Assembly: GCF_016127315.1 (NCBI RefSeq)
Contig: NZ_CP065997.1
Span: forward strand, 868,001-932,000
From: Achromobacter deleyi
GTDB lineage: Bacteria > Pseudomonadota > Gammaproteobacteria > Burkholderiales > Burkholderiaceae_B
Direction: 5' to 3'
Length of the DNA: 64,000 nt
The notes beneath the pieces are model-generated. The model ran no database searches, had not been told where the DNA came from, and worked only from the letters and a program-made list of their open reading frames with translations. The translations under genes and the position numbers were made by a program. Below, piece after piece: positions 18,117-58,370 of the stretch (position 1 is the first letter of the stretch; every line of letters begins with the position of its first letter).

Positions 18117-18264
18117 GGGGCAGGCGGGGGGATGGCGGGGCGTGTAGATGCCCCCAAGGGAAACCGTAGGGAAGGCCGTAGGCCTGGACGAGGTTGACGC
18201 AGGGGAAGTCCGGAGCGAACGCTCCGGACCGCAATCGTAGCCCCGCCATCCCCCCGCCTGCCCC
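18117..18264 (+). repeat. Long inverted-repeat element, copy A
   Basis: Perfect 25-bp arms at 18117-18141 and 18240-18264 enclose a 98-bp loop. The loop starts GTGTAGATG and contains a core palindrome at 18208-18229 (GTCCGGAGCG / CGCTCCGGAC, 2-bp centre) followed by ACCGCAATCGTAG. The core and parts of the loop recur in copies B, C, D and E, while the arm sequence is private apart from half copy E. It lies between the convergent Bug and Lrp genes and fills most of that gap. It has no coding support. Confidence 0.85.
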
Positions 18265-18318
18265 GGCTCCCGCGGCTAAAGAACCCAATCCGCCGCAAGA
18301 ACAGCTAAAGAAGCCGCC

Positions 18319-18768
18319 CTACAAAGGCAACTTCAACTCATGCTTGATCTCCCGCAACGCCACAATCGTCCGCGTCTGCCGAATCCCAGGCATGTTGAAC
18401 AAGAACCGATGCAGAAACCGGTCATAAGCCTCCGGGCTCTCCACCAGGATCTTCAGCAGAAAGTCCGAATCCCCCGTGACGGCATAGCACTCGAGGATCT
18501 CCGGCGCATCCCGCACCGACCGCTCGAAGTTCTCCACCGTGTTCGCCGAATGCCGCTCCAGGCTGATCTGCGCGAACATACAGCCCAACCCCACCTTGCT
18601 GCGATCCACCTGCGCGCTGTAGCCCTGGATCACGCCGCTGGCCTCCAGCGCCTTCACCCGCCGCCATACCGGCGCCGCCGATAGCCCCACCTTGTCCGAA
18701 AGCTGCTGCGCCGAGGCCCGGCCATCCTCCTGCAGGGCCTTGAGGATGCCGATATCGGTCTTGTCCAT
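18319..18768 (-). CDS. Lrp/AsnC-family transcriptional regulator
   Basis: The 149-residue protein has an N-terminal HTH (MDKTDIGILKALQEDGRASAQQLSDKVGLS...RRVKALEASGVIQGY). A RAM ligand-binding domain follows (ISLERHSANTVENFERSV, ECYAVTGDSDFLLKILV), ending near DIL-type residues. Lrp-family proteins sense amino acids. It is divergent from the indolepyruvate:ferredoxin oxidoreductase gene, which acts on 2-oxo acids made from amino acids. Amino-acid-responsive control of that enzyme is therefore likely. The first ATG fits the family start exactly. Confidence 0.95.
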   Translation of the reverse strand: MDKTDIGILKALQEDGRASAQQLSDKVGLSAAPVWRRVKALEASGVIQGYSAQVDRSKVGLGCMFAQISLERHSANTVENFERSVRDAPEILECYAVTGDSDFLLKILVESPEAYDRFLHRFLFNMPGIRQTRTIVALREIKHELKLPL

Positions 18769-18800
18769 CGTTTTGTCTCCTGTTTGGGTCGAAATTCCGC

Positions 18801-18815
18801 GAACACGAAATGTTC
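18801..18815. promoter_or_regulatory. Probable Lrp-type operator
   Basis: GAACA and TGTTC flank a 5-bp centre, and a looser outer symmetry extends on both sides (TTC...GAA). It sits in the 135-bp gap between the lrp-type gene and the oxidoreductase gene. Confidence 0.5.
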
Positions 18816-18903
18816 ATTGCGAATTATAGGGATAGCACGATCCGAAAACGCAATAAACCCGATGCCGCGCGAACCTATCATGGTGCCGACTACAGGAGCA
18901 TTC

Positions 18904-21900
18904 ATGATGGACGGTACCCCCGCCGCCGAGCCCACGCTGGACCTCGATTACCAGCTCGCCGACAACCTCACCCGCGAGACCGGCCGCATCTTCCTCACCG
19001 GCACCCAGGCCCTGGTGCGCATCATGCTGACCCAGCGCCGCGTCGACCGCGAGCGCGGCCTGAACACCGCCGGCTTCGTCTCCGGCTACCGCGGCTCGCC
19101 CCTGGGCGGCGTCGACATGGCGATGTGGAAGGCGCAGAAGGCGCTCGACGCCAACCAGATCTCGTTCCTGCCCGGCATCAACGAGGACATGGCCGCCACC
19201 GCCGTCATGGGCACGCAGCAGGCCGGCGTGCGCGCCGACCGCAACGTCGATGGCGTCTTCGCCATGTGGTACGGCAAGGGCCCCGGCGTGGACCGCGCCG
19301 GCGACGCCCTGCACCACGGCAACGCGGCCGGCGCCTCGCGCCATGGCGGGGTGCTGGTGGTGGTGGGCGATGACCACACCGCCGTCTCCTCCTCGATCCC
19401 GCACGCCAGCGAGGCCTCGCTGATCGGCTGGCAGATGCCCATCGTGCACCCGGCCTCGATCGACGAATACGAAACCTTCGCCCTGTGGGGCTGGGCCCTG
19501 TCGCGCCATTCCGGCACCTGGGTCGCCTTCAAGGCCGTGTCCGAGACCATCGAGAGCGGCCACTCGTTCACCCCCGCGCCGGTGCGCGCCTATGACATGC
19601 CGGCCGATCCGGACCTGCCGCCCGAAGCGCTGGAATATTCCGCGCGCGACTTCCTGTCGCTGGCGGTCGAAACCCGCATGAACCTGCGCATGAAGGCGGT
19701 CGCCGCCTTCGCCCGCCGCCACAGCATCGACCGCCTCACCTGTCCGGCGCCCAGGGCCACGGTCGGCATCGTCACCGTCGGCAAGGCCCACCTGGACACC
19801 ATGGAAGCGCTGTCGCGCCTGGGCGTGGACACCGTCACCGCCAACGCGCCGGTGCGCATCTACAAACCCGGCCTGACCTGGCCGCTGGACGCCGAACGCA
19901 TGCTCGACTTCGCGCGCGGCCTGTCGCACATCCTCGTGATCGAGGAAAAAGGCGCCGTCGTCGAGACCCAGCTCAAGGACCTGCTGTTCAACCTGCCCGA
20001 GCGCGCCACCGTGGTCGGCAAGAAGGGCTTCGACGGCGAAGCGCTGGTGCCGTCCGCCGGCCAGCTGCGCCCGTCGCTGCTGGCGCGGCCGCTGGCCATG
20101 TGGCTGTCGCGCAGCGCCGGCCTGCAGCCCGGTGTCGACCTGGCCACCTTCGACTGCCAGGACATGCTGTCCAACGACGCCGACGGCATGCGCCGCCGCC
20201 CCTACTTCTGTTCTGGCTGTCCGCACAGCACCTCGACCAAGGTGCCCGAGGGCAGCCAGGCGCTGTCGGGCGTGGGCTGCCACTACATGGCCGCCTGGAT
20301 GGACCGCGACACCGGCGGCCTGACCCAGATGGGCGGCGAAGGGGTCGACTGGATCGGCCTGTCGCGCTACACCAGGATGCCGCACATCTTCCAGAACATG
20401 GGGGAAGGCACCTACTACCACTCCGGCTACCTGGCGATCCGCCAGGCCGTGGCCGCCAAGGCCAACATCACCTACAAGATCCTGTTCAACGACGCCGTCG
20501 CCATGACCGGCGGCCAGCCGGTGGACGGGCCGATCTCGGTGCCGCAGATCTGCCAGCAGCTGCGCGGCGAAAACGTCGCCCGCATCGTCGTCACCAGCGA
20601 CGAGCCTGAGAAATACCAGGGCGTGGACCTGGGCGCCGGCATCAAGGTGCATCATCGCCGCGACCTCGATGCCCTGCAGCGCGAGCTGCGCGAAATCCCC
20701 GGCGTCACCGTGCTGATCCACGACCAGACCTGCGCCGCCGAAAAGCGCCGCCGCCGCAAGAAGAACCAGTTCCCCGACCCGGCCCGCCGCATGCTGATCA
20801 ACAGCGCGGTGTGCGAAGGCTGCGGCGACTGCGGCGTGAAATCGAACTGCCTGTCGGTGGTGCCGCTGGAAACGCCGTATGGCCGCAAGCGCGCCATCGA
20901 CCAGTCCAGCTGCAACAAGGACTACTCCTGCGCCGAGGGCTTCTGCCCCAGCTTCGTCTCGGTCATGGGCGGCAAGCCCAGGAAGAGCGCCGCGCCCAAG
21001 GCCGACCAGGAACGCCTGCAGCAGCTGATCCAGCAATTGCCGCTGCCGCAATCGCTGGCGCTGGAACGCCCCTACCGCCTGCTGGTGGCGGGCATGGGCG
21101 GCACCGGCGTCATCACCATCGGCGCCATCGTGTCGATGGCGGCCCACCTGGAAGGCCTGTCGGCCGCGGTGCTGGACCTGACCGGCCTGGCGCAGAAGGG
21201 CGGCACGGTGGTCAGCCACATCCGCCTGGCGCCCGCCGGCGCCGCCGCCGGCCCGGTGCGCCTGGACTGGCAGCAGGCCGATGCCGCCATCCTGTGCGAT
21301 CCGGTCGCCGCCGTCGCGCCCGACTCGCTCGGCGCGCTGCGCCGCGGCCACACCCAGGTCACCGTCAACACCTACGTCGCGCCGGTGTCCGATTTCACCC
21401 GCAACCCGGACGCCGCCATGCGGCCGGAAGCGCTGCTGGCCAAGATCCGCCACGCAGCGGGCGACGAACACACCGCCGCCATCGACGCGCACGAAGCCGC
21501 GCTGGCCCTGTTCGGCGACAGCATCCTATCGAACATGTTCATGCTGGGCTACGCCTGGCAGCGCGGCGGCGTGCCGCTGTCGCAGGCCGCCATCAACCGC
21601 GCCATCGAACTGAACGGCGTCGCCGTGGCCGCCAACCGCGCCGCGTTCGACAGCGGCCGCCTGGCCGCGCACCAGCCCGACGCGCTGGAAGGCGCGCTGC
21701 GCCCGCGCGCCCAGGTGGTGCAACTGCATGTGCCGGAGACCTTCGAGCGCGCCGTGGCGCGCCGCGTCGACGACCTGACCGCCTACCAGGACGCCGCCTA
21801 CGCGCAGGCCTACCGCGACATGGTCGAGCGCGTCGCCGCGCGCGAACGCGAGCTGGCGCCCGACGCCAGGAGTCCGCGCCTGGCCATGGCGGTGGCGCGC

Positions 21901-22413
21901 GGCCTGTTCAAGCTGATGGCCTACAAGGACGAATACGAAGTCGCCCGCCTCTACACCGGCGAGGCCTTCCAGGCCCAGCTCAAGGGCCAGTTCGAAGGCG
22001 ACTACAGCCTGCGCTTTCACATGGCGCCGCCGATCTTCGCGCGCAAGGACCCGCGCACCGGCGTGCCGCGCAAGGTGACGCTGGGCCCGCGCACCATGAC
22101 CGCGCTCAAGCTGCTGACCCGCTTCAAGCGCCTGCGCGGCACCTGGTTCGATCCGTTCGGCCACACCGCCGAGCGCAAGATGGAGCGGGCACTGGTGGGC
22201 GAGTACCGCCAGACCATAGACCAGTTGCTCGCAGGGTTGAATCGCGACAACCTGGCGCAAGCAGCTACAATCGCCGCCCTTGCAGAAACCATCCGCGGCT
22301 TCGGCCACGTGAAGGCTGCGAACGTCGAGAAGTACAGGACGGAGCTGGCCCGCTCGATGCAAAGCTATACGGCGCCTGCCCCGCGCGAAGTGCCCCTGCG
22401 GAAAACCGCATAA
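18904..22413 (+). CDS. Fused indolepyruvate:ferredoxin oxidoreductase
   Basis: The 1169-residue enzyme fuses the alpha (thiamine pyrophosphate) and gamma parts of indolepyruvate:ferredoxin oxidoreductase. This family decarboxylates aryl- or branched-chain 2-oxo acids to acyl-CoA with ferredoxin as electron acceptor. The N-terminal part carries GYRGSPLGGVDMAMW. A CSGCPHSTSTK motif sits at about 436, and a cysteine cluster CEGCGDCGVKSNC at about 637 probably binds an iron-sulfur centre. The gamma domain begins with LLVAGMGGTGVITIG at about 726, and a C-terminal region of the DUF6537 type follows. ATG 18904 has AGGAG five bases upstream. It is divergent from an Lrp regulator. Confidence 0.93.
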   Translation: MMDGTPAAEPTLDLDYQLADNLTRETGRIFLTGTQALVRIMLTQRRVDRERGLNTAGFVSGYRGSPLGGVDMAMWKAQKALDANQISFLPGINEDMAATAVMGTQQAGVRADRNVDGVFAMWYGKGPGVDRAGDALHHGNAAGASRHGGVLVVVGDDHTAVSSSIPHASEASLIGWQMPIVHPASIDEYETFALWGWALSRHSGTWVAFKAVSETIESGHSFTPAPVRAYDMPADPDLPPEALEYSARDFLSLAVETRMNLRMKAVAAFARRHSIDRLTCPAPRATVGIVTVGKAHLDTMEALSRLGVDTVTANAPVRIYKPGLTWPLDAERMLDFARGLSHILVIEEKGAVVETQLKDLLFNLPERATVVGKKGFDGEALVPSAGQLRPSLLARPLAMWLSRSAGLQPGVDLATFDCQDMLSNDADGMRRRPYFCSGCPHSTSTKVPEGSQALSGVGCHYMAAWMDRDTGGLTQMGGEGVDWIGLSRYTRMPHIFQNMGEGTYYHSGYLAIRQAVAAKANITYKILFNDAVAMTGGQPVDGPISVPQICQQLRGENVARIVVTSDEPEKYQGVDLGAGIKVHHRRDLDALQRELREIPGVTVLIHDQTCAAEKRRRRKKNQFPDPARRMLINSAVCEGCGDCGVKSNCLSVVPLETPYGRKRAIDQSSCNKDYSCAEGFCPSFVSVMGGKPRKSAAPKADQERLQQLIQQLPLPQSLALERPYRLLVAGMGGTGVITIGAIVSMAAHLEGLSAAVLDLTGLAQKGGTVVSHIRLAPAGAAAGPVRLDWQQADAAILCDPVAAVAPDSLGALRRGHTQVTVNTYVAPVSDFTRNPDAAMRPEALLAKIRHAAGDEHTAAIDAHEAALALFGDSILSNMFMLGYAWQRGGVPLSQAAINRAIELNGVAVAANRAAFDSGRLAAHQPDALEGALRPRAQVVQLHVPETFERAVARRVDDLTAYQDAAYAQAYRDMVERVAARERELAPDARSPRLAMAVARGLFKLMAYKDEYEVARLYTGEAFQAQLKGQFEGDYSLRFHMAPPIFARKDPRTGVPRKVTLGPRTMTALKLLTRFKRLRGTWFDPFGHTAERKMERALVGEYRQTIDQLLAGLNRDNLAQAATIAALAETIRGFGHVKAANVEKYRTELARSMQSYTAPAPREVPLRKTA

Positions 22414-22437
22414 ACACTCGCGCTGAGCCGCAATCTC

Positions 22438-22465
22438 CTGGGCGCGCCTTGCTAGGCGCGCCCAG
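22438..22465. terminator. Hairpin after the oxidoreductase gene
   Basis: An 11-bp perfect stem (CTGGGCGCGCC / GGCGCGCCCAG) with a 6-nt loop lies 25 bp past the stop. The following T-rich stretch is weak. Confidence 0.5.
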
Positions 22466-22528
22466 TGCATTTAGTAACAATGTTTTGGGAACCTGATCCT
22501 ATCTTCTTCTTGTAGCTGTCGTACTCGA

Positions 22529-22575
22529 TCACTAGAATTAGTGTCCAACGAGGGGTGCTACACTACATGTTGTGG
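22529..22575 (+). promoter_or_regulatory. Pair of NrdR boxes upstream of nrdA
   Basis: Box 1 (22529-22544, TCACTAGAATTAGTGT) and box 2 (22560-22575, ACACTACATGTTGTGG) both match the 16-bp palindromic NrdR consensus. Their centres are 31 bp apart, three helical turns, as is standard for NrdR repression of ribonucleotide reductase genes. The remaining 22576-22716 leader shows no gene. Confidence 0.85.
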
Positions 22576-22716
22576 TCGCCTAACCGCTGATACTCGTCGG
22601 CCACGCCATACGGATTCGTCCGTCCAAGCGTTGCGACCCCCTCAATAAGATCCAATTTCGTACCTGACATGACGTCGTCATGTCGCTATCTACGCGCTTT
22701 TCGCACAGGAGCTTCC

Positions 22717-25647
<2,931 letters not shown>

Positions 25648-25668
25648 ACCGCCTCCGGAGAATGAATC

Positions 25669-26868
25669 ATGATTAATTGGGAAGACGACACCCTCGCCAC
25701 GCAACCTGCACAAGCCCCCGCGCCCGCGGCGGGCGGGCAGGCTGCGCCCGAAGTCCGGGCGGCGACGGGCGTGTTCGGCGACACCGCCATGCCGACCCCG
25801 GCCGCGCCGCAGCATGCGGCCGGCCTGACGGCCAGCGGCAGCGCCACCTCGCAACGCGTGAAGGTTGCCGACAAGCGCATCATCAATGGCGAGACCGACG
25901 TCAACCAGCTGGTGCCGTTCAAGTACAAGTGGGCATGGGAGAAATACCTGGCCACGTGCGCGAACCACTGGATGCCGCAAGAAATCAACATGTCGCGCGA
26001 CATCGCCCTCTGGAAGAACCCGAACGGGCTCACCGAGGACGAGCGCCGCATCGTCAAGCGCAACCTGGGTTTCTTCGTCACGGCCGACTCGCTGGCCGCG
26101 AACAACATCGTGCTGGGCACCTACCGCCACATCACGGCGCCCGAATGCCGCCAGTTCCTGCTGCGCCAGGCCTTCGAAGAAGCCATCCACACGCACGCCT
26201 ATCAATACATCGTCGAAAGCCTGGACCTGGACGAAGCGGAGATCTTCAACGCTTACAACGAAGTGCCGTCCATCCGCGCCAAGGACGAGTTCCTGATCCC
26301 GTTCATCGACGCGATCGCGGACCCCAACTTCAAGACGGGCACGCCCGAAGCCGACCAGACGCTGCTGAAGTCCCTGATCGTCTTCGCTTGCCTGATGGAA
26401 GGCCTGTTCTTCTACGTTGGCTTCACGCAGATCCTGGCGCTCGGTCGCCAGAACAAGATGACCGGCGCGGCCGAGCAGTACATGTACATCCTGCGCGATG
26501 AATCCATGCACTGCAATTTCGGCATCGACCTGATCAACACCGTCAAACTGGAAAATCCGCATCTGTGGACGCCGGAATTCCGCGAAGAAATTCGAGAACT
26601 CTTCCGCAAAGCGGTCGAACTCGAATACGCTTACGCCGAAGACACGATGCCGCGTGGTGTGTTGGGCTTGAACGCTCCCATGTTCAAATCCTACCTGCGC
26701 TTCATCGCCAACCGTCGTTGCCAGCAAATCGGTATCGAACCGCTGTACCCGCAGGAAGAGAATCCCTTCCCGTGGATGGCGGAGATGATCGATCTTAAGA
26801 AGGAACGCAACTTTTTTGAAACTCGCGTGATCGAATACCAAACCGGTGGCACGCTGAGCTGGGAGTAA
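25669..26868 (+). CDS. nrdB: Class Ia ribonucleoside-diphosphate reductase, beta subunit
   Basis: The 399-residue radical-generating partner of NrdA has its diiron site and radical residue. [12 protein letters not shown] supplies Asp140. EEAIHTHAY supplies Glu171, His174 and the radical Tyr178, aligning with E. coli E115, H118 and Y122. [12 protein letters not shown] supplies later ligands. An N-terminal Ala/Pro-rich tail of about 60 residues (residues 11-60) precedes the conserved fold. Such tails are common in this bacterial group and are probably flexible. The last 90 codons are less C-biased than the rest. The ATG at 25669 follows GGAG, in the nrdAB operon. Confidence 0.96.
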
Positions 26869-44659: not shown

Positions 44660-44720
44660 GGACGGCGTCTGGTCTGTCTGTAGGCTTTTTTGCTGGCTTC
44701 GGGACGGGCTTTCTTAGGCC

Positions 44721-44982
44721 GCCCGTCTGGCAGGCGGCCCGGGCGGCGGGCGCCCACGATTGCGGTCCGGAGCGTTCGCTCCGGACTGCCCCATCCTCAT
44801 CCTCGTTGCCGCCTGGCGGCGGCTGCCTTCGGATTCCGTCGGGCGCATCGAGGTTGCCCGACGCCCGGGCCGCCTGCCAGACGGGCTACGTTTTTCTTGG
44901 CCTGTCGCGCTGCTGGAGCGGGGAAACTTTACGAGATTGCTGATGCCCGTTGCGGGTGGCCGCGCGGGCGGCCGCCCGCAAC
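44721..44982 (-). repeat. Composite inverted-repeat element, copy B
   Basis: Hairpin 1 has 31-bp arms at 44721-44751 and 44856-44886 (30 of 31 pair) around a 104-bp loop. The loop carries the shared core palindrome at 44765-44786 and, read on the minus strand, ends ACCGCAATCGTGGGC. After a linker holding TGTCGCGCTGCTGGA there is hairpin 2 at 44949-44982, a 34-nt dyad centred on GGCCGCGCGGGCGGCC. The orientation is opposite to copies A and C. Confidence 0.85.
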
Positions 44983-45238
44983 TTACGCGGTGTCTTGGCT
45001 TGAAGTGTTGACGTTGCGCGCGGGTGGCGGGTTGCTTGCTGGGGGGCCGTCCGATCGGGGGAGAGAGTGGGCGGCGCGCGGTGGAGGGTGGCGTGCGCGT
45101 GACGGGCTTGGCGCGCCGCCTGATTAGGGAAGAGTGGGTAACGGGGAAGACATAAGGTGATGCATCGCTGATTCTTCCGCGAGGAGCCCCCCGATGCATC
45201 CCGGACTCTTCCGCATCCCGCCCGACCTCCCCCCAAAT
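44983..45238. other. G-rich to C-rich spacer between elements B and C
   Basis: The + strand is strongly G-rich to about 45150 and C-rich from about 45180. The flip lies between two element copies that face each other. It contains GATGCATCG near 45158 and CGATGCATC near 45191, a small inverted pair. No coding region was supported. Confidence 0.6.
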
Positions 45239-45524
45239 GCCAAAGAAGGCCGCCCGCGCGGCCGGTTTTGGCGGCCCCGCCAAATCTTCCGTCCCGACGC
45301 GATCTTCCACCAAAACGCCAAGCACACGATTCGCCCCCGCGCCGGTGAAGTGATCACGGTGCAGCCCGTGGCGTCGGCGGCCGGTGGGGCGCGGGGCGTG
45401 TAGATGCGCCCGAGGGAATCCGTAGGGAGCCGAAGGCGGACGGGATGACGACGGGGCAGTCCGGAGCGGACGCTCCGGACCGCAATCGTAGCCCCGCGCC
45501 CCACCGGCCGCCGACGCCACGGGC
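45239..45524 (+). repeat. Composite inverted-repeat element, copy C
   Basis: Hairpin 2 (45239-45272, 34 nt, centre GGCCGCCCGCGCGGCC, the reverse complement of that in B and D) comes first. After 91 bp, hairpin 1 follows with perfect 34-bp arms at 45364-45397 and 45491-45524. Its 93-bp loop begins GTGTAGATG, and its core palindrome is at 45459-45480. The copy is inverted relative to B and ends about 90 bp before the response-regulator start. Confidence 0.85.
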
Positions 45525-45615
45525 GGTCAACAGAACACCACAACCGCCGCGACACCAATCGTGCCTCCCGTTAAACTCCCGAAAAAAATCACAAATCAAA
45601 TTTCGGAGGACGGAC

Positions 45616-48845: not shown

Positions 48846-48945
48846 CTGTCGTGCCATGACAGGACGACGACAGACGCCGAATCCTAAGATGGGCGCCAAG
48901 CAGGCCCTTGCGCCTGTCGATACCAATTCCAAACGGAGACAAGAC

Positions 48946-50043
48946 ATGCTTGCCAAGTCCAGACTGGCGGCCGCCTGCGCCGCTGCATTCGCCATCGCCG
49001 CCGGCAGCGCCTACGCCCAACAGGTTCCCGCGGGCTACCCGGCCGATTACCAGAAGATCCTCGACGGCGCCAAGAAGGAAGGCAAGGTCGTGATCTATTC
49101 GACCACCGACACCAAGGCCGCCGGCCCCATCATCAAGGGCTTCGAAGCGCTGTATCCGGGCGTCAAGGTCGAATACAACGACATGAACAGCACCGAGCTG
49201 TACAACCGCTACATCAGCGAACAGGCGGCGGGCGGCAGCAGCGGCGACATCGTCTGGAGCTCGTCGATGGACTCGGCGCTCAAGCTGGCCACCGACTACG
49301 CGCTGCAGTACAAGTCGCCCGAGATCGCCAAGCTGCCGGCCTGGGCGGTGTGGAAGGATTCGGCCTACGGCACCACCTATGAACCGGCGGTGTTCATCTA
49401 CAACAAGCGCCTGATCCCGGCCAACGAAGTGCCGACCACGCACGGCGCCCTGGCCAAGCTGATCTCCAGCCAGCCGGACAAGTTCAAGAACAAGGTCACC
49501 ACCTACGACATCGAGAAGTCGGCCGTGGGCTTCATGCTGGCCGTGCAGGACAAGGCCAACGATCCCAAGTACTTCGAGACGCTCAAGGACATCGCCAAAG
49601 GCGGCCTGATCGTGCAATCGTCCACCGGCACCATGATGGAACGCGTGTCGTCGGGCGAGAACCTGGTCGGCTACAACATCCTGGGCTCGTACGCCGAGAC
49701 CCGCGCCAAGACCGACCCGTCGCTGGGCGTGGCCTACCCGACCGACTACGCCCTGGTGCTGTCGCGCGTGGCATTCATCAGCAAGAAGGCCAAGAACCGC
49801 AACGCCGCCAAGCTGTGGATGGACTACCTGCTGTCGCAGAAGGGCCAGGAAATCATGGCCAACCAGGCCGACCTGGCCTCGGTCCGTGACGACATCGAAG
49901 GCGACAACGACGTCGACGGCATGACCAAGAAGCTGGGCGCCTCGCTCAAGCCGATCCCGGTCAACGAAACGCTGCTCGACTACCTCGAGCAGAACAAGCG
50001 CCTGCAGTTCATCAAGGACTGGCGCGCCGCCGCAGGCAAGTAA
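48946..50043 (+). CDS. Iron(III)-type ABC transporter substrate-binding protein
   Basis: The 365-residue periplasmic protein has a signal peptide (LAAACAAAFAIAAGSAYA). A type II binding fold of the FbpA/AfuA/phosphonate-like group follows (KKEGKVVIYSTTDTKAAGPIIKGFEALYPGVKVEY, GDIVWSSSMDSALKLA, VGYNILGSYAE). This group binds ferric iron, but also phosphoglycerates and other anions, so the ligand is open. ATG 48946 opens the signal peptide and is preceded by a GGAG-type site. Its fold is duplicated as the C-terminal domain of the preceding kinase. A GC hairpin separates it from the permease. Confidence 0.9.
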   Translation: MLAKSRLAAACAAAFAIAAGSAYAQQVPAGYPADYQKILDGAKKEGKVVIYSTTDTKAAGPIIKGFEALYPGVKVEYNDMNSTELYNRYISEQAAGGSSGDIVWSSSMDSALKLATDYALQYKSPEIAKLPAWAVWKDSAYGTTYEPAVFIYNKRLIPANEVPTTHGALAKLISSQPDKFKNKVTTYDIEKSAVGFMLAVQDKANDPKYFETLKDIAKGGLIVQSSTGTMMERVSSGENLVGYNILGSYAETRAKTDPSLGVAYPTDYALVLSRVAFISKKAKNRNAAKLWMDYLLSQKGQEIMANQADLASVRDDIEGDNDVDGMTKKLGASLKPIPVNETLLDYLEQNKRLQFIKDWRAAAGK

Positions 50044-50059
50044 GGCTGTCGCCGGTACA

Positions 50060-50082
50060 GCCGGGGGCCGCGCGCCCCCGGC
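50060..50082 (+). terminator. Intercistronic hairpin after the binding-protein gene
   Basis: A 9-bp stem GCCGGGGGC / GCCCCCGGC with a 5-nt loop and no T-run lies between the binding-protein and permease genes. It may lower read-through or protect the upstream message. Confidence 0.55.
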
Positions 50083-50191
50083 CGCAAGCACGCGGGAGGG
50101 CGTAGCACCGCCGCCCGCCAGGCCGCCCGCAGGCCGGGTGTTCATGGCCAACGGGCGCGACCCGCGTCTATCGAGATAACAGGATTTCCCC

Positions 50192-51970
50192 ATGCAGTCA
50201 TTGCGCAGAAAATGGCAGTCCCTGCCACGCGGCGTGGTGGTGCTGATCACAGCCTTGGCCATCTACGTGCCGCTGTCGTTCATCATCATCCAGAGCTTTC
50301 TATCCGCGCCCTTCTTTTCGCCGTCCAAGGTCTTCAGCCTGGACGCATTCCGCTTCATCTTCGCGGACCCCGATTTCTACAAGGCGCTGAAAAGCGGCTT
50401 CATCCTGGCGTTCGGGCTGGCCATCATCGCCATCCCGCTGGGCGGCATGCTGGCGTTCCTGATGATCCGCACCGACCTGCCGGGCCGGCGCTGGATCGAA
50501 CCGCTGATCCTGGTGCCGATCTTCGTGTCGCCGATGGTGCTGGGCTTCGGCTACGTGGTGGCGGCGGGCCCGGTCGGCTTCTTCTCGACCTGGGTGCAGA
50601 ACATCCTGGGCTTCGTGCCCTGGAACGTGTATTCGCTGACCAGCATCGTCATCATCGCCGGCCTGACGCACGTGCCGCACGCCTACCTGTACATCTCGTC
50701 GGCGCTGCGCAGCATGGGCTCGGACGTCGAGGAAGCGGCCCGCGTCAGCGGCGCCTCGCCGCTGCGCGTGATGGTCTCGGTGAGCCTGCCGATGGTGCGC
50801 CCCGCCATGCTGTACGCCACCGTGCTGCTGTTCTTCCTGGGCCTGGAAGTGTTCGGCCTGGTGCTGGTGCTGGGCGACCCTGAAGGCAACCTGGTGCTGG
50901 CGACGTACCTGTACAAGCTGACCAACAAGCTCGGCATCCCGTCGTACCACCTGATGGCCGCGGTGGCCGTGGTGCTGATCTGCATGACGATTCCGCTGGT
51001 CATGCTGCAGCGCCGCCTGATGCGCACCGCCAACCGCTTCGTCACCGTCAAGGGCAAGGCCTCGCGCGCCCGTCCGCTGCCGCTGGGCAAGTGGCGCTGG
51101 GTGGCCGGCGGCGTGGTGACGTTCTGGCTGCTGGTCACCATCGTGGTGCCGCTGCTGGGCGTGCTGCTGCGCGCATTCGTGTCCAACTGGGGCATGGGCG
51201 TGTCGCTGTTCGACGTGCTGTCGCTGGACGCGTTCCGCACCGTGTTCTCGCAACCCAACCTGATGCGCGCGATCGTCAACTCGGTGGCCATCGGCGTCTT
51301 CGGCGGCGCGCTGGCGGTGTTCTGCTACACCTTCGTCGGCCTGGCCATGCACCGCAAGCCGGACAACGTCACGCGCTTCATGGACTACAGCGTGCTGGTG
51401 CCGCGCGCCGTGCCCGGCCTGCTGGCGGGCCTGGCGTTCCTGTGGGTGTTCCTGTTCGTGCCCATGTGGCTGGACAACGCGCTCGATCCGGACCTGGGCG
51501 GCTGGCTGTCGGGCCTGCCGTTCGCGGAATGGCTGCGCGAGAACTTCGTCGAATGGCTGCGTGCCATCCGCAGCACCATCTTCAGCGTGTGGCTGGCCTA
51601 CACGGTGGTCTGGATGGCCTACGGCCTGCGGCTGATCTCGTCGACGCTGCTGCAGGTCGGCCCCGAACTGGAAGAGGCCGCCCGCAGCGCCGGCGCGCGC
51701 CGCGGCCAGGTCACCCGCCACGTCACCGTGCCGCTGGCCAAGTACGGCCTGATCGGTTCGTGGCTGCTGATGTTCCTGATTTTCGAGCGTGAATACTCCA
51801 CCGGCGTCTACCTGCTGTCGCCCGGCACCGAGACCATCGGTTCCATGCTGGTGTCGCTGTGGGCCTCGGGCGCCATCGACATCGTGGCCGCGCTTTCCTT
51901 CATCAATATCGTTCTGGTCGTGATCGGCCTGGGCATCGCCCTGCGATTCGGAGTCAAACTTCATGATTGA
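50192..51970 (+). CDS. Fused two-domain ABC permease (FbpB/AfuB type)
   Basis: The 592-residue permease has two homologous halves of about six helices each. Each half carries an EAA loop: AARVSGASPLRVMVSVSLPMVRPAMLY near 190-215 and AARSAGARRGQVTRHVTVPLAKYGLIGSWLL near 495-525. This duplicated form is typical of iron(III)/thiamine-type importers, where one chain forms the whole channel. It overlaps the ATPase gene by 8 bp. Together with the binding protein and ATPase it makes a complete importer. Confidence 0.94.
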   Translation: MQSLRRKWQSLPRGVVVLITALAIYVPLSFIIIQSFLSAPFFSPSKVFSLDAFRFIFADPDFYKALKSGFILAFGLAIIAIPLGGMLAFLMIRTDLPGRRWIEPLILVPIFVSPMVLGFGYVVAAGPVGFFSTWVQNILGFVPWNVYSLTSIVIIAGLTHVPHAYLYISSALRSMGSDVEEAARVSGASPLRVMVSVSLPMVRPAMLYATVLLFFLGLEVFGLVLVLGDPEGNLVLATYLYKLTNKLGIPSYHLMAAVAVVLICMTIPLVMLQRRLMRTANRFVTVKGKASRARPLPLGKWRWVAGGVVTFWLLVTIVVPLLGVLLRAFVSNWGMGVSLFDVLSLDAFRTVFSQPNLMRAIVNSVAIGVFGGALAVFCYTFVGLAMHRKPDNVTRFMDYSVLVPRAVPGLLAGLAFLWVFLFVPMWLDNALDPDLGGWLSGLPFAEWLRENFVEWLRAIRSTIFSVWLAYTVVWMAYGLRLISSTLLQVGPELEEAARSAGARRGQVTRHVTVPLAKYGLIGSWLLMFLIFEREYSTGVYLLSPGTETIGSMLVSLWASGAIDIVAALSFINIVLVVIGLGIALRFGVKLHD

Positions 51971-53051
51971 GCTTTCTGTAGAAGACCTGCACCTGGATTA
52001 CGGCGACAACCCGGTGCTCAAGGGCGTGTCGATGCAGCTGCGCCAGGGCGAAGTGGTTTCGCTGCTGGGCCCCTCGGGCAGCGGCAAGACCACCCTGCTG
52101 CGCGCCGTGGCGGGCCTGGAAGGCCCCAAGCGCGGCCGCATCACCATCGGCGAGCGCACCGTCTACGACGGCGCCGCGCGCCAGGAGATCCCGGCCGAAG
52201 AGCGCAACCTGGGCCTGGTGTTCCAGTCGTACGCGCTGTGGCCGCACAAGACCGTGTTCGACAACGTCGCCTACCCGCTCAAGCTGCGCAAGGTGCCGTC
52301 GAGCGAAGTGCGCGAACGCGTGCAGGCGGTGCTGGACCAGCTCGGCCTGGGCAAGCTCGGCCAGCGCCATCCGCACGCGCTGTCCGGCGGCCAGCAGCAG
52401 CGCGTGGCCATCGGCCGCGCGCTGGTGTACAGCCCGCCCGTGATCCTGCTGGACGAGCCGCTGTCCAACCTGGACGCCAAGCTGCGCGAGGAGGCCCGCG
52501 CCTTCCTGCGCGAGCTGATCATCCGCCTGGGCCTGTCGGCGTTGATGGTGACGCATGACCAGAGCGAAGCCATGGCCATTTCGGACCGCATCCTGCTGCT
52601 GAACAACGGCAAGATCGAACAGCAGGGCACGCCGCAGGAAATGTACGGCGCGCCGTCGACGCTGTTCACCGCCGAATTCATGGGCAGCAACAACCGCCTG
52701 GACGGCAAGGTCACCGAAGTGCGCGATGGCCGCGCCCGCATCGAGGGCCGCGGCTGGGCGCTGTGGGGCAAGGCCGGCGAGGGCGTGGCCGCGGGCCAGG
52801 ACGCCACCGCCGTGATCCGGGTCGAACAGGTCCGCCTGGCGGACGATCCCGACGGCAACCACATCGACATGCCGCTGCTGACCAGCATGTACCTGGGCGA
52901 CCGCTGGGAATACCTGTTCCGCACCCCCGACGCGGATCCGGCCAACACCCTGGCGCTGCGCGCCTACGGTCCCGAGGGCCGCGAGCCGGGTCCCTGCCGC
53001 CTGGCGCTGCCGGCCAGCAAGGTCTGGGTGTTCCCGCGCCCGTCCAAGTAA
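51963..53051 (+). CDS. ABC transporter ATP-binding protein (FbpC/PotA type)
   Basis: The 362-residue ATPase has Walker A GPSGSGKTT, a Q-loop (VFQSYALWPHKTV), signature LSGGQQQR, Walker B VILLDEPLSNLDAKLR and an H-loop MVTHDQSEA. A C-terminal TOBE-type regulatory domain spans about 240-362. The length and the PLSNLDAKLREE segment place it with FbpC/PotA/UgpC importers. It drives the permease encoded immediately upstream. Confidence 0.95.
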   Translation: MIELSVEDLHLDYGDNPVLKGVSMQLRQGEVVSLLGPSGSGKTTLLRAVAGLEGPKRGRITIGERTVYDGAARQEIPAEERNLGLVFQSYALWPHKTVFDNVAYPLKLRKVPSSEVRERVQAVLDQLGLGKLGQRHPHALSGGQQQRVAIGRALVYSPPVILLDEPLSNLDAKLREEARAFLRELIIRLGLSALMVTHDQSEAMAISDRILLLNNGKIEQQGTPQEMYGAPSTLFTAEFMGSNNRLDGKVTEVRDGRARIEGRGWALWGKAGEGVAAGQDATAVIRVEQVRLADDPDGNHIDMPLLTSMYLGDRWEYLFRTPDADPANTLALRAYGPEGREPGPCRLALPASKVWVFPRPSK

Positions 53052-53089
53052 GGTGACGGCGGCGGGCGGAGTGGCTCTACAATGCGTGC

Positions 53090-53989
53090 GTGCAACACGT
53101 CGCTGACTCCCCTCCCCCGCTGAGCCGTCCGCTGCGGTGGCTGGGCGCGCCCGCCCAGCACTACCTGCGCATCGGCCTCGCGATTTCGCTGTTGGTGCAC
53201 GCCGGCGCCCTGGCGTGGCGCTTCGGCGCGCCCGCCCTGTCGCGGCCGCCGGCGACCAGCCTGGAAGTGGTGCTGCTCAACGCCCGCAGCGAGACGCCCC
53301 CCGATACCCCCCGCGCCCAGGCGCAGAACCAGATGAGCGGCGGCGGCAACGCCGAGCGCGGCCTGTCCACCACTCCCCTGCCCCAGACCGGCGCGTCGGC
53401 CGAGACCATCGTGCTCGAGGCCATGCGTAAGCGCCAGGTCCAGCTCGAGGCCGAACAGACCCGCCTGATGACCCAGCTGCGCGCCGCCGACAAGGCCGGC
53501 GCCGAGCGCCAGGCCGTCAACCCCTGGCCCGACGGCAACGAACGCGGCAAGGACGCCGAGGACCAGGCCAGCGTCATCCAGAACGCCCAGGTCGCCGCGC
53601 TGGCGGCCAAGGTGCAGCAATACAGCGCCGAGCCGCGCAAGCAATTCGTGGCGCCCTCGGCCGAGGCCTCGCGCTACGCCGCCTACCTGGACGCCTGGCG
53701 CGCGCGCATCGAGACCGTCGGCACCCAGCATTACCCGGACGAGGCGCGCGGCCGCATCTACGGCTCGCTGCGCATCACCGTGTCGGTGCGCGCCGACGGC
53801 AGCATCGCCGACGTCGAGATCGACCAGCCGTCGCCGCACGCGGTGCTGAACCAGGCCGCCCGCCGCATCGTGCAGCTGGCGGCGCCGTTCCCGCCGTTCC
53901 CGCCCGAGATCGCGCGCGACACCGACGTGTTGGTCATCACCCGCACCTGGCATTTCGTCAACGACACCCTGGAAACCCAAGCCCCATGA
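53090..53989 (+). CDS. TonB-like energy-transducer family protein
   Basis: The 299-residue protein has an N-terminal membrane anchor (YLRIGLAISLLVHAGALAW, about 25-43). A helical, Gln/Ala/Glu-rich periplasmic spacer and a C-terminal TonB-like domain follow (YPDEARGRIYGSLRITVSVRADGSIADVEIDQPSPHAVLNQAARRIVQLAAPFPPFP). The anchor holds the S-x3-H motif (SLLVH) that TonB and TolA use to contact ExbBD-type motors. It may energise an outer-membrane receptor or belong to another envelope machine. No exbBD genes are nearby. The start is a GTG at 53090 and is somewhat uncertain. It overlaps aroE by 4 bp. Confidence 0.85.
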   Translation: MQHVADSPPPLSRPLRWLGAPAQHYLRIGLAISLLVHAGALAWRFGAPALSRPPATSLEVVLLNARSETPPDTPRAQAQNQMSGGGNAERGLSTTPLPQTGASAETIVLEAMRKRQVQLEAEQTRLMTQLRAADKAGAERQAVNPWPDGNERGKDAEDQASVIQNAQVAALAAKVQQYSAEPRKQFVAPSAEASRYAAYLDAWRARIETVGTQHYPDEARGRIYGSLRITVSVRADGSIADVEIDQPSPHAVLNQAARRIVQLAAPFPPFPPEIARDTDVLVITRTWHFVNDTLETQAP

Positions 53990-54849
53990 CCGAGGCGTCC
54001 CCTCTTGCCCGCTATGCCGTGATCGGCAACCCCATCGCGCACAGCCGCTCGCCGCAGATCCACGCCCTGTTCTCCCGCCAGACCGGCAAGCCGCTCAGCT
54101 ACGAGCGCCTGCTGGCGCCGGTGGACGGCTTCACGGCGGCGGTGGCCGCCTTTGCCACCGAGGGCGGCCTGGGCCTGAACGTGACGGTGCCGTTCAAGCA
54201 GGACGCCTACGCGCTGGCCGCGGGCCGCCTGTCCAGCCGCGCCCGCCTGGCCGGCGCGGTCAACACCCTGTCGTGGCGCGACGGCGCCTGGCACGGCTGC
54301 AATACCGACGGCGTCGGCCTGGTCTCCGACCTGCTACGCCTGGGCGTGCGCCTGACCGGCGCCTCGGTGCTGCTGGTGGGCGCCGGCGGCGCCGCCCGCG
54401 GCGTGCTGCAGCCCCTGGCGCAGGCTGGTTGCGCCCGCATCCATATCGTCAACCGCACCGCCGCCCGCGCGCTCGAGCTGGCCGAGGGCTGGCGCGAAAC
54501 CGGCGCCGAGCCCCAGACCCGGGTCACCGCCGGCGGCCTGGCCGACGCCGCCCTGCCCGGCGGCTGGAACCTGGTGGTCAACGCCACCGCCAGCGGGCTG
54601 CAGGACGCTGCCCCCGACCTGCCCGCCGGCCTGTACGCCGAGGGCGCGGCCGCCTACGACATGATGTACGGCGCCCAGCCGACGGCGTTCATGCGCCAGG
54701 CCCGGGCAGACGGCGCCGCCCTCACCGCCGACGGCCTGGGCATGCTGGTGGGCCAGGCGGCCGAGAGTTTCTTCATCTGGCACGGCGTGCGGCCCGACCC
54801 CGCCCCGGTGCTGGCCGCGCTGCGCGAGGCGCTCATGGCCGGAAACTGA
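53986..54849 (+). CDS. aroE: Shikimate dehydrogenase
   Basis: The 287-residue NADPH-dependent enzyme reduces 3-dehydroshikimate to shikimate. The substrate site NPIAHSRSP, the catalytic Lys71 in NVTVPFKQDAY and Asp108 in NTDGVGLVSDL are all intact. The Gly-rich NADP loop is LLVGAGGAARGVLQPL and NRTAARA follows. The start overlaps the stop of the TonB-like gene as ATGA. mtgA follows after 4 bp, making a tight three-gene unit. Confidence 0.97.
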   Translation: MTEASPLARYAVIGNPIAHSRSPQIHALFSRQTGKPLSYERLLAPVDGFTAAVAAFATEGGLGLNVTVPFKQDAYALAAGRLSSRARLAGAVNTLSWRDGAWHGCNTDGVGLVSDLLRLGVRLTGASVLLVGAGGAARGVLQPLAQAGCARIHIVNRTAARALELAEGWRETGAEPQTRVTAGGLADAALPGGWNLVVNATASGLQDAAPDLPAGLYAEGAAAYDMMYGAQPTAFMRQARADGAALTADGLGMLVGQAAESFFIWHGVRPDPAPVLAALREALMAGN

Positions 54850-54853
54850 GGCG

Positions 54854-55588
54854 ATGGCCGCCCGCGGCAAGAGCGGCAAGCGCCGCTCCTGGTTCCGGAT
54901 CATCACCGGCACGCTGATGGCGCTGGTGTGCGCCGTGCTGCTGTACCAGTTCTGGCTGTTCGGGCTGGTGGTCTGGTACAACTACCAGAACCCGGGCAGC
55001 AGCGCCGTGATGCGCGAGGAACTGTCCCGCCTGCAGGACGGCAACCCCGATTTCCGCCTGAAATACGAGTGGGTGCCCTATGACAAGATCAACCGCAGCC
55101 TGAAGCTGGCGGTGGTGGCGTCCGAGGATTCCAACTTCACCGAGCATGACGGCGTCGAGTGGGACGCCATCCGCAAGGCCTGGGAATACAACCAGAAGCA
55201 GGAGGCGGCCGGGCGCAGCAAGATGCGCGGCGGCTCGACCATCACGCAACAATTGGCCAAGAACCTGTTCCTGTCCAGTTCCCGCAGCTACCTGCGCAAG
55301 GGCCAGGAACTGGTGCTGACCTACATGATCGAACACGTCATGAGCAAGGAGCGCATCCTGGAGCTGTACCTGAATGTGGCGGAATGGGGCGTCGGCGTGT
55401 TCGGCGCCCAGGCGGCGGCCAAGCACTATTTCAACGTGCCGGCGGCCAGCCTGGGGGCCGCCCAGTCGGCCCGGCTGGCGGCCATGCTGCCCAATCCGCG
55501 CTTCTATGACAGCCACCGCAACTCGAACTACCTGAACTCCCGCGTCTACACCCTGACCCGGCGGATGCAGATGGTCGATATTCCCTGA
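54854..55588 (+). CDS. mtgA: Monofunctional peptidoglycan glycosyltransferase
   Basis: The 244-residue protein has one N-terminal membrane helix (LMALVCAVLLYQFWLFGLVVWY). A GT51 transglycosylase domain follows: VVASEDSNFTEHDG with the catalytic Glu, RGGSTITQQLAKNLFLSSSRSYLRKGQE, and ELYLNVAEWGVGVFGAQAAAKHYF. It polymerises lipid II into glycan strands on the outer face of the inner membrane. There is no transpeptidase domain, as expected for MtgA. Confidence 0.97.
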   Translation: MAARGKSGKRRSWFRIITGTLMALVCAVLLYQFWLFGLVVWYNYQNPGSSAVMREELSRLQDGNPDFRLKYEWVPYDKINRSLKLAVVASEDSNFTEHDGVEWDAIRKAWEYNQKQEAAGRSKMRGGSTITQQLAKNLFLSSSRSYLRKGQELVLTYMIEHVMSKERILELYLNVAEWGVGVFGAQAAAKHYFNVPAASLGAAQSARLAAMLPNPRFYDSHRNSNYLNSRVYTLTRRMQMVDIP

Positions 55589-55686
55589 TACGAAAACCGG
55601 CCGCTTCGACAGGTTCCCGCCCACCTTGGGCGGCGGGATTTGTTAAGCTTTCATGTTTACGCCAATTCGTCTTTTCCGCCTCATTC

Positions 55687-56865
55687 ATGCGCACCGCACG
55701 TCGTTACCTGGCCCGCGAGATCTATCGCTCCTGCGCAGTGGTCCTCATGGCCCTGCTGGGCCTATTCACGTTCTTCGCGCTGGTGGACGACCTGGACAAC
55801 GTCGGCGACAAGTTCTCGATGATGGCCCTGCTGTACATGCAGGCGCTGGCCATCCCCACCCGCCTGTACGATCTCCTGCCCATCGGCCTGCTGATCGGCG
55901 CCATCCTGGCGCTGGCCGGGCTGGCGCAGCGCAATGAGCTGGTGATCCTGCGGGTCTCCGGCGTCAGCGGCATGCGGCTGCTGCGCATGCTCTGGATCGT
56001 CACGATTCCGCTGATGATCGGCGCCGCCCTGCTGTCCGAGTACGTCACCCCCTGGGCCGAGATGAAATCGGGCGAGGCCAACCTGGTGTTCCGCGGCAAG
56101 GCCGGCGGCGACCGGCTGAACAGCGGCTACTGGTTCAAGGAACCCATGGCCAACGGCGGCACCCGCATCATCAACATCGGCGAGCTCAAGGGCGACGGCC
56201 AGGTCACCGGCATCACCCTGTACGAATTCAAGAAGGACCTGACGCTGTCGGTGCTGTCCACGGCCCCCAGCGGCCTCTTCGCCCACGGCGACCTGGTGCT
56301 GAAAGACGTCTCCGAGACCCGCCTGGACGACAACGCCTCGGAAACGCTGGCCGACGCCCGGCCGCCGAAGAATCCCCCCGCGGTGGTGGTGAAGGTGCCG
56401 GAACGCACCGTCGACACCACCCTGAGCGCCGAGCGCCTGCTGGCGCGGATCCTGACGCCCGAGAGGATGTCGATCGCGACGCTGCTGGACTATGTGGATT
56501 ATTTGCGCAACAACCAGCTGCAATATGGTCGACAGGTCGTCGCCTTGTGGCGCAAACTGGCGTATCCGTTCACGCTGCTGGTGATGATCACCATCGCCGC
56601 CCCCATCGGCCTGATGCAGACGCGCCGCGGCGGCGTGGGCGCCAAGGTGTTCATCGGCATCCTGCTGGGCGTGGGTTTCTTCATGCTCAACCAGCTGGCG
56701 CTGAACGTAGGCATGCTGGGCAAGTGGCCGCCCTGGCTCACGGCCCTGGGGCCGAATATCGGCGCCATGGCCCTGGCGCTGGGCGCCATGAGCTATATGG
56801 AATACCGCCACACCATCACCCGTATCGTCCAACAACGTTGGCCCTGGAGCAAGAGTCCCGCATGA
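55687..56865 (+). CDS. lptG: LPS export permease LptG
   Basis: The 392-residue inner-membrane protein is of the LptF/LptG family, with three N-terminal and three C-terminal helices around a periplasmic beta-jellyroll domain. [19 protein letters not shown] is the coupling-helix region facing the LptB ATPase, and [22 protein letters not shown] lies in the jellyroll. Features fit LptG better than LptF. The sister gene lptF is not adjacent, so the pair is split. It overlaps apaH by 4 bp. Confidence 0.9.
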
Positions 56866-57695
56866 ACGGCAGTATCTGGATGATCGGCGACGTGCAAGGT
56901 TGCTGCTCGCCGCTGGATCGCTTGCTGTCCCATCCCGAACTGGTCGGCGATCCGAAGTCGCGCTTCTGGTTCGCGGGGGATCTGGTCAACCGCGGCCCGC
57001 AGTCGCTTGCGACGCTGCGCCGCATCATCGACCTGGGCGACCGCGCCACGGTGGTGCTGGGCAACCACGACCTGCACCTGCTGGCCGCCGCCGCGGGCGT
57101 GCGCAAGCCGTCCAAGTCGGACACGCTGGACGACATTCTGCGCGCGCCGGATTCGGCCGACCTGATCGACTGGCTGCGCTCGCGCCCGCTGGCGCATTTC
57201 GAGCAAAATCACCTGATGGTGCATGCGGGCACGCTGGCAAAATGGGATGTGGCCAAGACGCTGTCGCTGGCGGCCGAGGTACAGGACGCGCTGCGCGGCC
57301 CGAACTGGCAAAAGGCGCTGCAGAAGATGTACGGCAACGAGCCGTCGACGTGGAAGGAAGACCACAAGGGCGGCAAGCGGATGCGGGTGATCATCAATGC
57401 GCTGACGCGCATCCGCCTGTGCACGCCGAACGGCCACATGGAGTTCGCGACGAAGGTGACGCCTGGTGCGTGGCCGGCGGGGCTGGTGCCATGGTTCGAT
57501 GTGCCGAACCGCGCCACGCGCGACGTGACGACGGTCTTCGGCCACTGGTCGACGCTGGGCCTGATGATGCGTCCGGACGTGATCTGCCTGGATACGGGAT
57601 GCGTATGGGGTGGGGCGTTGACGGCGTTGCGGTTGCAGGATCGGAAGCTGGTGCAGGTGAAGTGTTCGCAGTTTCAGGATCCGTTGTCTGAGTGA
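56862..57695 (+). CDS. apaH: Symmetrical bis(5'-nucleosyl)-tetraphosphatase
   Basis: The 277-residue metallophosphatase cleaves Ap4A to two ADP. Metal-site motifs are [29 protein letters not shown] and the later VHAG and FGHWST. The length is typical. The start overlaps lptG as ATGA. The 3' part (about 57590-57695) turns G/T-rich on the coding strand, unlike the rest of the gene, and inverted-repeat element D begins 100 bp past the stop. Confidence 0.96.
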
Positions 57696-57794
57696 CGGAT
57701 TCTTCTTGCGATCGAGGTGATGGTCGTTGCTGCTTCTGGCTTGAACGTCTGGTTCTGGCCTTTTTTTCTTGGCGTTGTTGAGTCTTCGTAGGTC

Positions 57795-58054
57795 GCCCCT
57801 CGGTCGGGCGGACCCGATGGCGGGCGCCCACGATTGCGGTCCGGAGCGTTCGCTCCGGACTTCCCCTTCGTCATCCTCGTCCTCGCCTTCGGCGACTACT
57901 TCGGATTCCCTCGGGCGCATCGAGGTTGCCCGCCATCGGGTCCGCCCGCCCGAGGGGCTACGGATTTCGAGGCTTGTCGCGCTGCTAGACCTGTGTTCAG
58001 GGCATGAAACCTGCAGGGCTGCCCATCGCGGCCGCGCGGGCGGCCACGCTGGGC
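57795..58054 (-). repeat. Composite inverted-repeat element, copy D
   Basis: Hairpin 1 has 31-bp arms at 57795-57825 and 57928-57958 (30 of 31 pair) around a 102-bp loop with the core palindrome at 57839-57860. The linker contains TGTCGCGCTGCTAGA, as in copy B. Hairpin 2 at 58021-58054 is again 34 nt and centred on GGCCGCGCGGGCGGCC. B and D share orientation, spacing (62 bp between hairpins) and loop subtype. Confidence 0.85.
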
Positions 58055-58213
58055 GTCTGTGCATTTGAAAGTGGGGCGGGTGCGCTGTGCGCGGGTGGCG
58101 AGCGGTTTTCTATTGATTCCGCGCATCAGGGGGAGGGGCGGTGGTGGTCGGCGCGATGTGCGCCGTGTTGCGCGTGGCGGACTTCGCGCGCCGACCACAA
58201 ACAGTCTTGGTGC

Positions 58214-58342
58214 GGGCATGCGTTCAACGGCAACGGTACTTGGCGCTGGTATGTCTCGGTAGCAATGCGTCGCGGAGCGGGCATGTCTTCAATGGCGAAT
58301 GCATCGCGGCGCTGGCATGCCTTCAATAGCAAAAATGCTCGG
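58214..58342. repeat. Degenerate 29-35 bp tandem repeats
   Basis: Four head-to-tail units (58214-58247, 58248-58278, 58279-58313, 58314-58342) share the pattern GGCATG-C-TTCAA-GGC-A-TGC-T-GCGG-GC with many changes. They lie between element D and half copy E. Confidence 0.65.
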
Positions 58343-58370
58343 ACCGCAATCGTAGCCCCGCCATCCCCCA
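58337..58370 (+). repeat. Half copy E of the inverted-repeat element
   Basis: The sequence GCTC-GGACCGCAATCGTAG followed by CCCCGCCATCCCCC matches the right side of copy A (core half, conserved tag and part of the arm). No left arm is present, so it is a remnant. It is inverted relative to D. Confidence 0.7.

Follow-up and report, generated by a model that had tools for sequence, protein, structure and literature searches.

A dispersed family of two-ended, hairpin-bearing intergenic elements in Achromobacter deleyi and related genomes

A 64,000-nucleotide stretch of the Achromobacter deleyi genome (NZ_CP065997.1, positions 868,001 to 932,000 of the forward strand; hereafter the window) has five related intergenic repeats, four of which are full copies (A, B, C and D) and one a part copy (E). 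The repeats belong to a dispersed family of long hairpins, and B with C and D with E form two-ended units, an arrangement that the first-pass annotation of the window did not recognise. That annotation had offered a non-autonomous mobile element, a structured RNA or a transcript-end structure as possible roles. The first of these is the best fit, because the copy number varies from 3 to at least 54 per positive genome, the sites occur both empty and filled, the units are built head to head and no gene is called inside B/C or D/E by a home-made gene caller. The explanation that we favour, at about an even chance, is a non-coding, non-autonomous, mobile-type intergenic element whose working form is most likely folded single-stranded DNA (ssDNA). 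It looks like a large and unusual variant of the dispersed palindromic elements related to REPINs (doublets of repetitive extragenic palindromic, or REP, sequences) and MITEs (miniature inverted-repeat transposable elements).

The full copies are hairpins with arms of 26, 31, 34 and 31 bp around cores of 98, 104, 93 and 102 bp (A to D, respectively). All four cores contain GTCCGGAGC....GCTCCGGAC followed by the tag CGCAATCGT, and the loop reads GAAC except in C, which has GGAC; the shared core palindrome, adjoining tag and loop of 93-104 bp described earlier are thus present in every full copy. Arms were placed by best complementarity in 255 distinct copies, and the 232 with arms of at least 28 bp were used. 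The arms are mismatched at 3.6% of positions within a copy vs 49.3% when crossed between copies (the crossed arms being taken without the re-fitting given to a copy's own arms), so the hairpins are not due to chance. The arm sequence is private to one site or a few sites, yet the two arms of one copy are complementary.

The earlier proposal of a family depended on finding further copies genome-wide, and about 40 copies at 35 loci are present in the A. deleyi genome. The tag pattern with at most two mismatches occurs at 47 places vs one for the reversed control; five of the 47 were judged to be non-members, and one further place is half copy E. A covariance model built from 38 A. deleyi copies returns 68 rows in the same genome, of which 39 score over 100 bits, three score 66-74 bits and two represent one fused copy. 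The remaining 24 rows (at most 28.6 bits) are opposite strands of the same copies. The extents first given to the window copies stand for the four full copies and for E as a part copy, but the spans of B, C and D also took in a second hairpin, and E reaches 58395 rather than 58370. E lacks the 5' arm and most of the core, and its positions 58340-58395 are identical to a full copy at C1:932500.

The two loop subtypes noted in the window (A and C vs B and D) hold when each copy is read on its own strand. They are the opposite ends of one head-to-head unit, since the pairs join a type-1 and a type-2 hairpin head to head. The A. deleyi genome has nine such pairs (including D/E with its incomplete end), with tags 510-1110 bp apart, tails pointing outward and a unit length of mostly about 0.8 kb; the type-2 hairpin of one pair is a variant starting with GTCAGATG. 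The right half of the unit is an inverted repeat of the left, in the order head motif, variable head hairpin, linker, three-way junction and tail. The head hairpin, which is smaller and has a constant centre (GGCCGCCCGCGCGGCC) in a variable stem, lies near B, C and D. Copy A is a single copy without one; at this site the head hairpin is absent in the A. deleyi genome and G025, and present in G014, G026, G064, G007 and G018. A copy that stands alone is probably one half of a unit or what is left of a broken one. Head-to-head pairs also occur in eight genomes of three other genera, with different stem sequences.

In the fused copy (C1:402196-402239), a single constant hairpin is flanked by a type-1 arm and, on its other side, by a type-2 arm, which is what a deletion joining the two ends of a unit would leave. 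Overlapping opposite-strand matches at L308 4190-4227 suggest a second fused copy. In other species, short palindromes (GTGTCTGACACC / GGTGTCTGGC..GCCAGACACC) lie within some units (L165, L175, L229 and L243).

The core is predicted to fold as a three-way junction, and its pairs covary. Among the 38 A. deleyi copies, 99.7% of 1071 cells are paired, and 48 cells are changed on both sides. Shuffling gives 14.1 such cells, with none of 500 shuffles reaching 48, and slid versions of the structure give no more than 4. One pair is C-G in 23 copies, G-C in 15 and broken in none, and another is T-A in 26, A-T in 12 and broken in none. Some cores have an extra small hairpin module, GGGGGGGCCGCC(T/G)AGGCAAGTCC, between the side hairpin and the constant hairpin (L079, L080, L117 and C1:5988907); it is found at unrelated sites, as if shared.

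The mismatches in the arms are strongly asymmetric between the strands. Isolated mismatches on the tagged strand of 69 partly dependent arm clusters are G.T 82, A.C 16, G.A 26, T.C 5, G.G 5, C.C 0, A.A 1 and T.T 1 (binomial P = 7e-12 for G.T vs A.C and 2e-4 for G.A vs T.C). G.T and A.C are indistinguishable to a process acting on double-stranded DNA, so selection acts on a single folded strand with a fixed polarity. Selection of a double-stranded cruciform is rejected on account of this asymmetry. The asymmetry also bears on the rather improbable explanation that the repeats are passive palindromes with no selected strand, whose arms are equalised by replication template switching and whose cores are equalised by ordinary gene conversion. 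Between orthologous arms, both-sided changes that keep pairing outnumber one-sided changes 151 to 61, with 12 other double changes (pairwise counts that are not independent), as if one arm had been copied from the other. However, such a process predicts equal G.T and A.C, and equal G.A and T.C, on the tagged strand, where the observed ratios are about 5:1, and the clean covariation of single core pairs speaks against it as well.

The selected strand could alternatively act as RNA, either as a structured non-coding RNA or as an element of a 3' untranslated region, with transcription either starting mid-unit and running outward or resulting from read-through. This is a real but clearly lesser possibility than the favoured element. 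The covariation, the position of copies after gene 3' ends and the occurrence of GAAG loops in RNA are consistent with it. In the same contexts, RNA parameters strongly predict the excess of G.T over A.C (2.12 vs 6.10 kcal/mol) and likewise that of G.G over C.C (4.08 vs 6.64), but these coarse parameters do not predict the 26:5 excess of G.A over T.C (6.23 vs 6.27). The DNA parameters favour all three (G.T 3.18 vs A.C 5.11; G.G 2.79 vs C.C 5.44; G.A 3.49 vs T.C 4.98 kcal/mol), and the G.T/A.C and G.A/T.C ratios are equal (Fisher P = 1), as the DNA series predicts.

The loops point in the same direction. The side-hairpin cap is c(GNA)g in 214 of 232 copies (N = A 133, C 60, T 17, G 4), GNNA in 11 (nine of them not GNRA) and another sequence in 7, while the constant-hairpin loop is GNAB in 222 of 232. 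GNA and GNNA loops give extraordinarily stable DNA mini-hairpins (PMC4686876); GNNA and GNAB are stable in DNA, and GAAG is also an RNA loop (PMC8373063). For an RNA, triloops of the GNA type in which N is free, and GNNA loops of which most fall outside GNRA, would be unexpected. The preference in gene orientation is also weak for an RNA (30:17), and no promoter-like feature was seen by eye in the conserved head, for which no promoter scan was made. Rfam 15 gives no match in the window at gathering score; six matches from a permissive search of B/C all score far under that threshold, the highest (E 0.006) being to a microRNA family, with 30.3 bits where 168 are required. The surplus of G.A relative to T.C, together with the GNA, GNNA and GNAB loops, places ssDNA ahead of RNA as the selected molecule, short of proof. 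The structure and the defined strand in the earlier idea of a structured RNA therefore stand, but the mismatch contrast and loop types fit ssDNA better.

The distribution of the family is consistent with a mobile element. It is present in 36 of 37 same-genus genomes, with 3 to at least 54 matches per positive genome and 45 in the A. deleyi genome; six of the 37 have only 3-5 copies and one has none. Within the host family, 43 of 250 genomes from 8 of 43 genera match, some only at E near 1e-4, and the relatives in the seven genera other than its own are diverged and sometimes weak. The family was found in none of 24 other families of the order, searched with one genome each. The named contigs with the exact core pattern are all from Achromobacter among the matches listed.

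Site A was searched in 41 genomes. For 30 of these, whose locus was stored, the state of the site was read on a neighbouring-gene tree with a midpoint root. Nine are filled and 21 empty, which requires one change, and the filled ones form one clade. Of the site A stretches that were fetched, 13 of 20 are empty, with 61-145 bp that include an AT-rich palindrome. In a hand-chosen sample of 20 genomes, 8 have an empty B/C site, of 138-225 bp. The pattern of presence and absence at site A may be the result of insertion by transposition. In a comparison of L129 with L132 at site B/C, the G017 unit seems to replace one arm of a terminator-like hairpin that is intact in the empty G036, hinting at insertion into terminator hairpins. 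In the single-contig genome G015, the genes that flank B/C lie at C1:6062633 and C1:586223, about 1.3 Mb apart and on opposite strands, which indicates a chromosomal rearrangement with its breakpoint at the B/C intergenic site.

The cores turn over faster than the arms, and the side-hairpin modules are largely exchanged at sites that are kept. The module is shared by 25% of 53 ortholog pairs with at least 90% arm identity, by 7% of 56 pairs at 75-90% and by 5% of 220 pairs below 75%, compared to 5% of random pairs. The core is inverted between unchanged arms in 2 of the 197 copies with a recognisable tail, the other 35 of the 232 copies being left out of this count. The fast turnover of the module is also compatible with passive palindromes, and the two inverted cores and the fused copy fit palindrome-mediated events. 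The cores may be swapped via the folded strand rather than by ordinary gene conversion. A further and tentative proposal, of low confidence, is that the family represents a new class of chromosomal ssDNA-structure cassette. In such a class a three-way-junction core with DNA-type loops, selected as folded ssDNA, would move between dozens of fixed sites, each retaining its own palindromic arms; a putative enzyme acting on the folded strand would carry out the exchange and could reinsert the core either way.

In the favoured reading of a mobile element working as folded ssDNA, two half-elements head to head make up the unit, with a type-1 terminus at one end and a type-2 terminus at the other. 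Each half starts with a small head hairpin, which a linker connects to the three-way-junction hairpin at the terminus. When single-stranded, the tagged strand of each terminus would fold into long site-private arms around a conserved core, in which a side hairpin varies and the constant hairpin lies beside the tag. A putative ssDNA-binding enzyme would recognise the constant core, and single copies would be broken or half units. RAYT (REP-associated tyrosine) or IS200-type transposases and integron integrases recognise hairpins, and by analogy the enzyme may recognise the fold.

Several observations weigh against this reading. With regard to insertion, none of seven filled/empty comparisons has a readable target-site duplication; four of them, involving three 'empty' loci, turn out to be partial deletions with remnants still in place, and in the other three the junctions are hidden by intergenic divergence. 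Site B/C is an old site with losses, since 23 of the 28 rows on the tree carry one tag or more, and four changes are required to explain the pattern. Core turnover is partial, since ortholog pairs whose arms are nearly identical have other core features in common more often than random pairs do (closest orthologs vs random: outer pair 81% vs 61%, inner pair 72% vs 42%, constant-hairpin loop 66% vs 44%). With regard to the fold, neither the number of pairs with any double change (5 vs 4.3) nor that of further pair types (8 vs 7.8) exceeds shuffles, and the constant hairpin hardly varies, with few independent changes in its loop. RNA parameters also favour G.T and G.G, so that among mismatches the split between DNA and RNA rests on 31 G.A/T.C events; the arm clusters are not fully independent, the asymmetry counts include no model of mutational strand bias, and GAAG loops occur in RNA too (PMC8373063). 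No candidate enzyme is evident: the Y1 transposase (PF01797) has no match in the A. deleyi genome and one or two in 8 of 25 same-genus genomes, and the Y2 transposase (PF04986) was not found in the A. deleyi genome. Single copies are oriented 18:7 toward the leading-strand template, against the replication fork (P = 0.04, with the origin position taken from dnaA); IS200-type elements use the lagging-strand template. Finally, the longest stop-free run in B/C (270 codons) is above the 95% mark of base shuffles (252), so that B/C might conceivably have a coding role, though mechanical open reading frames (ORFs) over B/C (up to 268 aa) and D/E match no Pfam family.

The element shares properties with several known systems. 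REP doublets and REPINs are inverted doublets with single remnants, and their hairpins probably act as ssDNA (PMC3116915, PMC3733652). Like these and like bacterial interspersed mosaic elements (BIMEs), the Achromobacter element has intergenic head-to-head doublets (the pairs described above, here and in other genera), two subtypes, single remnants, many copies and a probable action as ssDNA hairpins. Unlike them, its half-unit is about 0.3 kb compared to 20-40 bp for a REP, it has a three-way junction, site-specific arms of 26-34 bp and an exchangeable core, and no RAYT (Y1) gene was found in the A. deleyi genome. In place of a 20-40 bp hairpin with a GTAG foot, the hairpins are 150-166 bp long, and GTAG, judged by eye, is found at the foot of many type-2 copies and not generally.

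The Bor-2 family of Bordetella bronchiseptica is a 167-bp intergenic, structured family with 17 copies (PMC2267715). The element resembles it in size class, in being intergenic, structured and low-copy, and in having diverged relatives in family-level kin. Bor-2 and Bor-1 were compared by description only, and the accessible part of that description mentions neither two-ended units nor private arms nor an exchange of cores; Bor-2 could be a relative of the element, which would lower its novelty. With respect to an already described family, there is no match in Rfam, and Bor-2 is known here from size, copy number and class only. Literature searches on Achromobacter or Bordetella intergenic repeats showed no description of the family, with Bor-2 left uncompared in sequence, although one may be in print; the available portion of PMC8632094 names neither genus.

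Integron attC sites are strand-specific folded ssDNA with a variable stem sequence and a conserved structure, and the element is like them in these respects. It differs from attC in its much longer arms and different core; no cassette array was seen, and no integrase search was made. Like MITEs and fold-back elements, it is short, non-coding, two-ended with inverted halves, and present or absent at orthologous sites. Unlike in MITEs, the ends are large hairpins rather than short terminal inverted repeats, one folded strand is selected, and the target-site duplication of a MITE is likewise not readable in the comparisons above.

A number of specific origins were considered and rejected. Against mobilisation by a RAYT or IS200 enzyme, no Y1 transposase was found in the A. 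deleyi genome, and Y1 has no evident relation to copy number in the genus. For an IS91/ISCR (Y2) origin, only G002 of 19 same-genus genomes matches PF04986, and G002 is without any copy. For a retron-like origin, which calls for an adjacent reverse transcriptase, the A. deleyi genome has one PF00078 match, at 5.75 Mb, with the nearest listed copies more than 100 kb away. There is no match in phages (B/C query), in plasmids (copy A query only) or in IMG/VR (exact pattern), which rejects a phage or plasmid origin. The intrastrand-triplex repeats described in PMC4666352 have, as far as that source is available, a different and shorter motif. For an autonomous element, ORFs were read in two pairs outside the window, the long pair of G109 and the 2.3-kb pair of G163. 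The latter has no convincing gene, and the former holds two transposase ORFs (L225 2865-4157 and 4138-5004), presumably IS256-like, that look like later insertions.

If the favoured reading is correct, the family would be a natural DNA-level counterpart of RNA covariation, with a fold selected in ssDNA that can be read from mismatch and loop type. The mismatch and loop-type test could be applied to other dispersed repeats. The family would also point to a new ssDNA-handling enzyme in Achromobacter and related genera, and it provides about 40 ready copies in one genome for studying the persistence, flipping and centre exchange of long palindromes.

Table 1. Positions of the repeat copies and their parts in the window
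Feature	Position	Strand	Details
Copy A, type-1 three-way-junction hairpin	18116-18265	+	arms 18116-18141 / 18240-18265, core 18142-18239
Whole two-ended B/C unit	44708-45540	not assigned	outer limits approximate
Copy B, type-2 hairpin, left end of B/C unit	44721-44886	-	3' arm 44721-44751, core 44752-44855, 5' arm 44856-44886
Left head hairpin of B/C, constant centre	44958-44973	-	GGCCGCCCGCGCGGCC on minus strand; stem around centre varies by copy
Right head hairpin of B/C, constant centre	45248-45263	+	
Conserved linker GCCAAGCACAC....CCCC	45317-45337	+	separates head hairpin from type-1 hairpin
Copy C, type-1 hairpin, right end of B/C unit	45364-45524	+	arms 45364-45397 / 45491-45524, core 45398-45490
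Copy D, type-2 hairpin, left end of D/E unit	57795-57958	-	3' arm 57795-57825, core 57826-57927, 5' arm 57928-57958
Head hairpin of D, constant centre	58030-58045	-	
E, right remnant of D/E type-1 end	58337-58395	+	tag, 3' arm, tail

The placement of the window copies between genes, with A and D in convergent settings, agrees with the gene caller, which puts A and D/E between convergent genes and B/C between two plus-strand genes. The caller placed 168 of 232 copies, with 55 too near a locus end and 9 without a neighbour. The 103 single copies comprise 52 convergent, 30 tandem sense, 17 tandem antisense and 4 divergent, and the 65 pair members 26, 16, 23 and 0, respectively. The convergent positions, and the scarcity of divergent ones, are what would be expected of bidirectional terminators or protectors of mRNA 3' ends between convergent genes, but this role is very unlikely. 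No T-tract follows the long hairpin in the copies inspected, and separate terminator-like palindromes stay at the empty site A alleles, which also rejects a dedicated terminator. In addition, termination needs neither the conserved core nor the tag, and the same-genus genomes with 3-5 copies or none speak against such a role. The earlier idea of a transcript-end structure is weak: copies do lie after gene 3' ends, but the excess of sense over antisense among tandem single copies has P = 0.08. Of the 35 loci in the A. deleyi genome, 29 are no more than 1.6 Mb from dnaA, a region where 46% would be expected (P = 9e-6).

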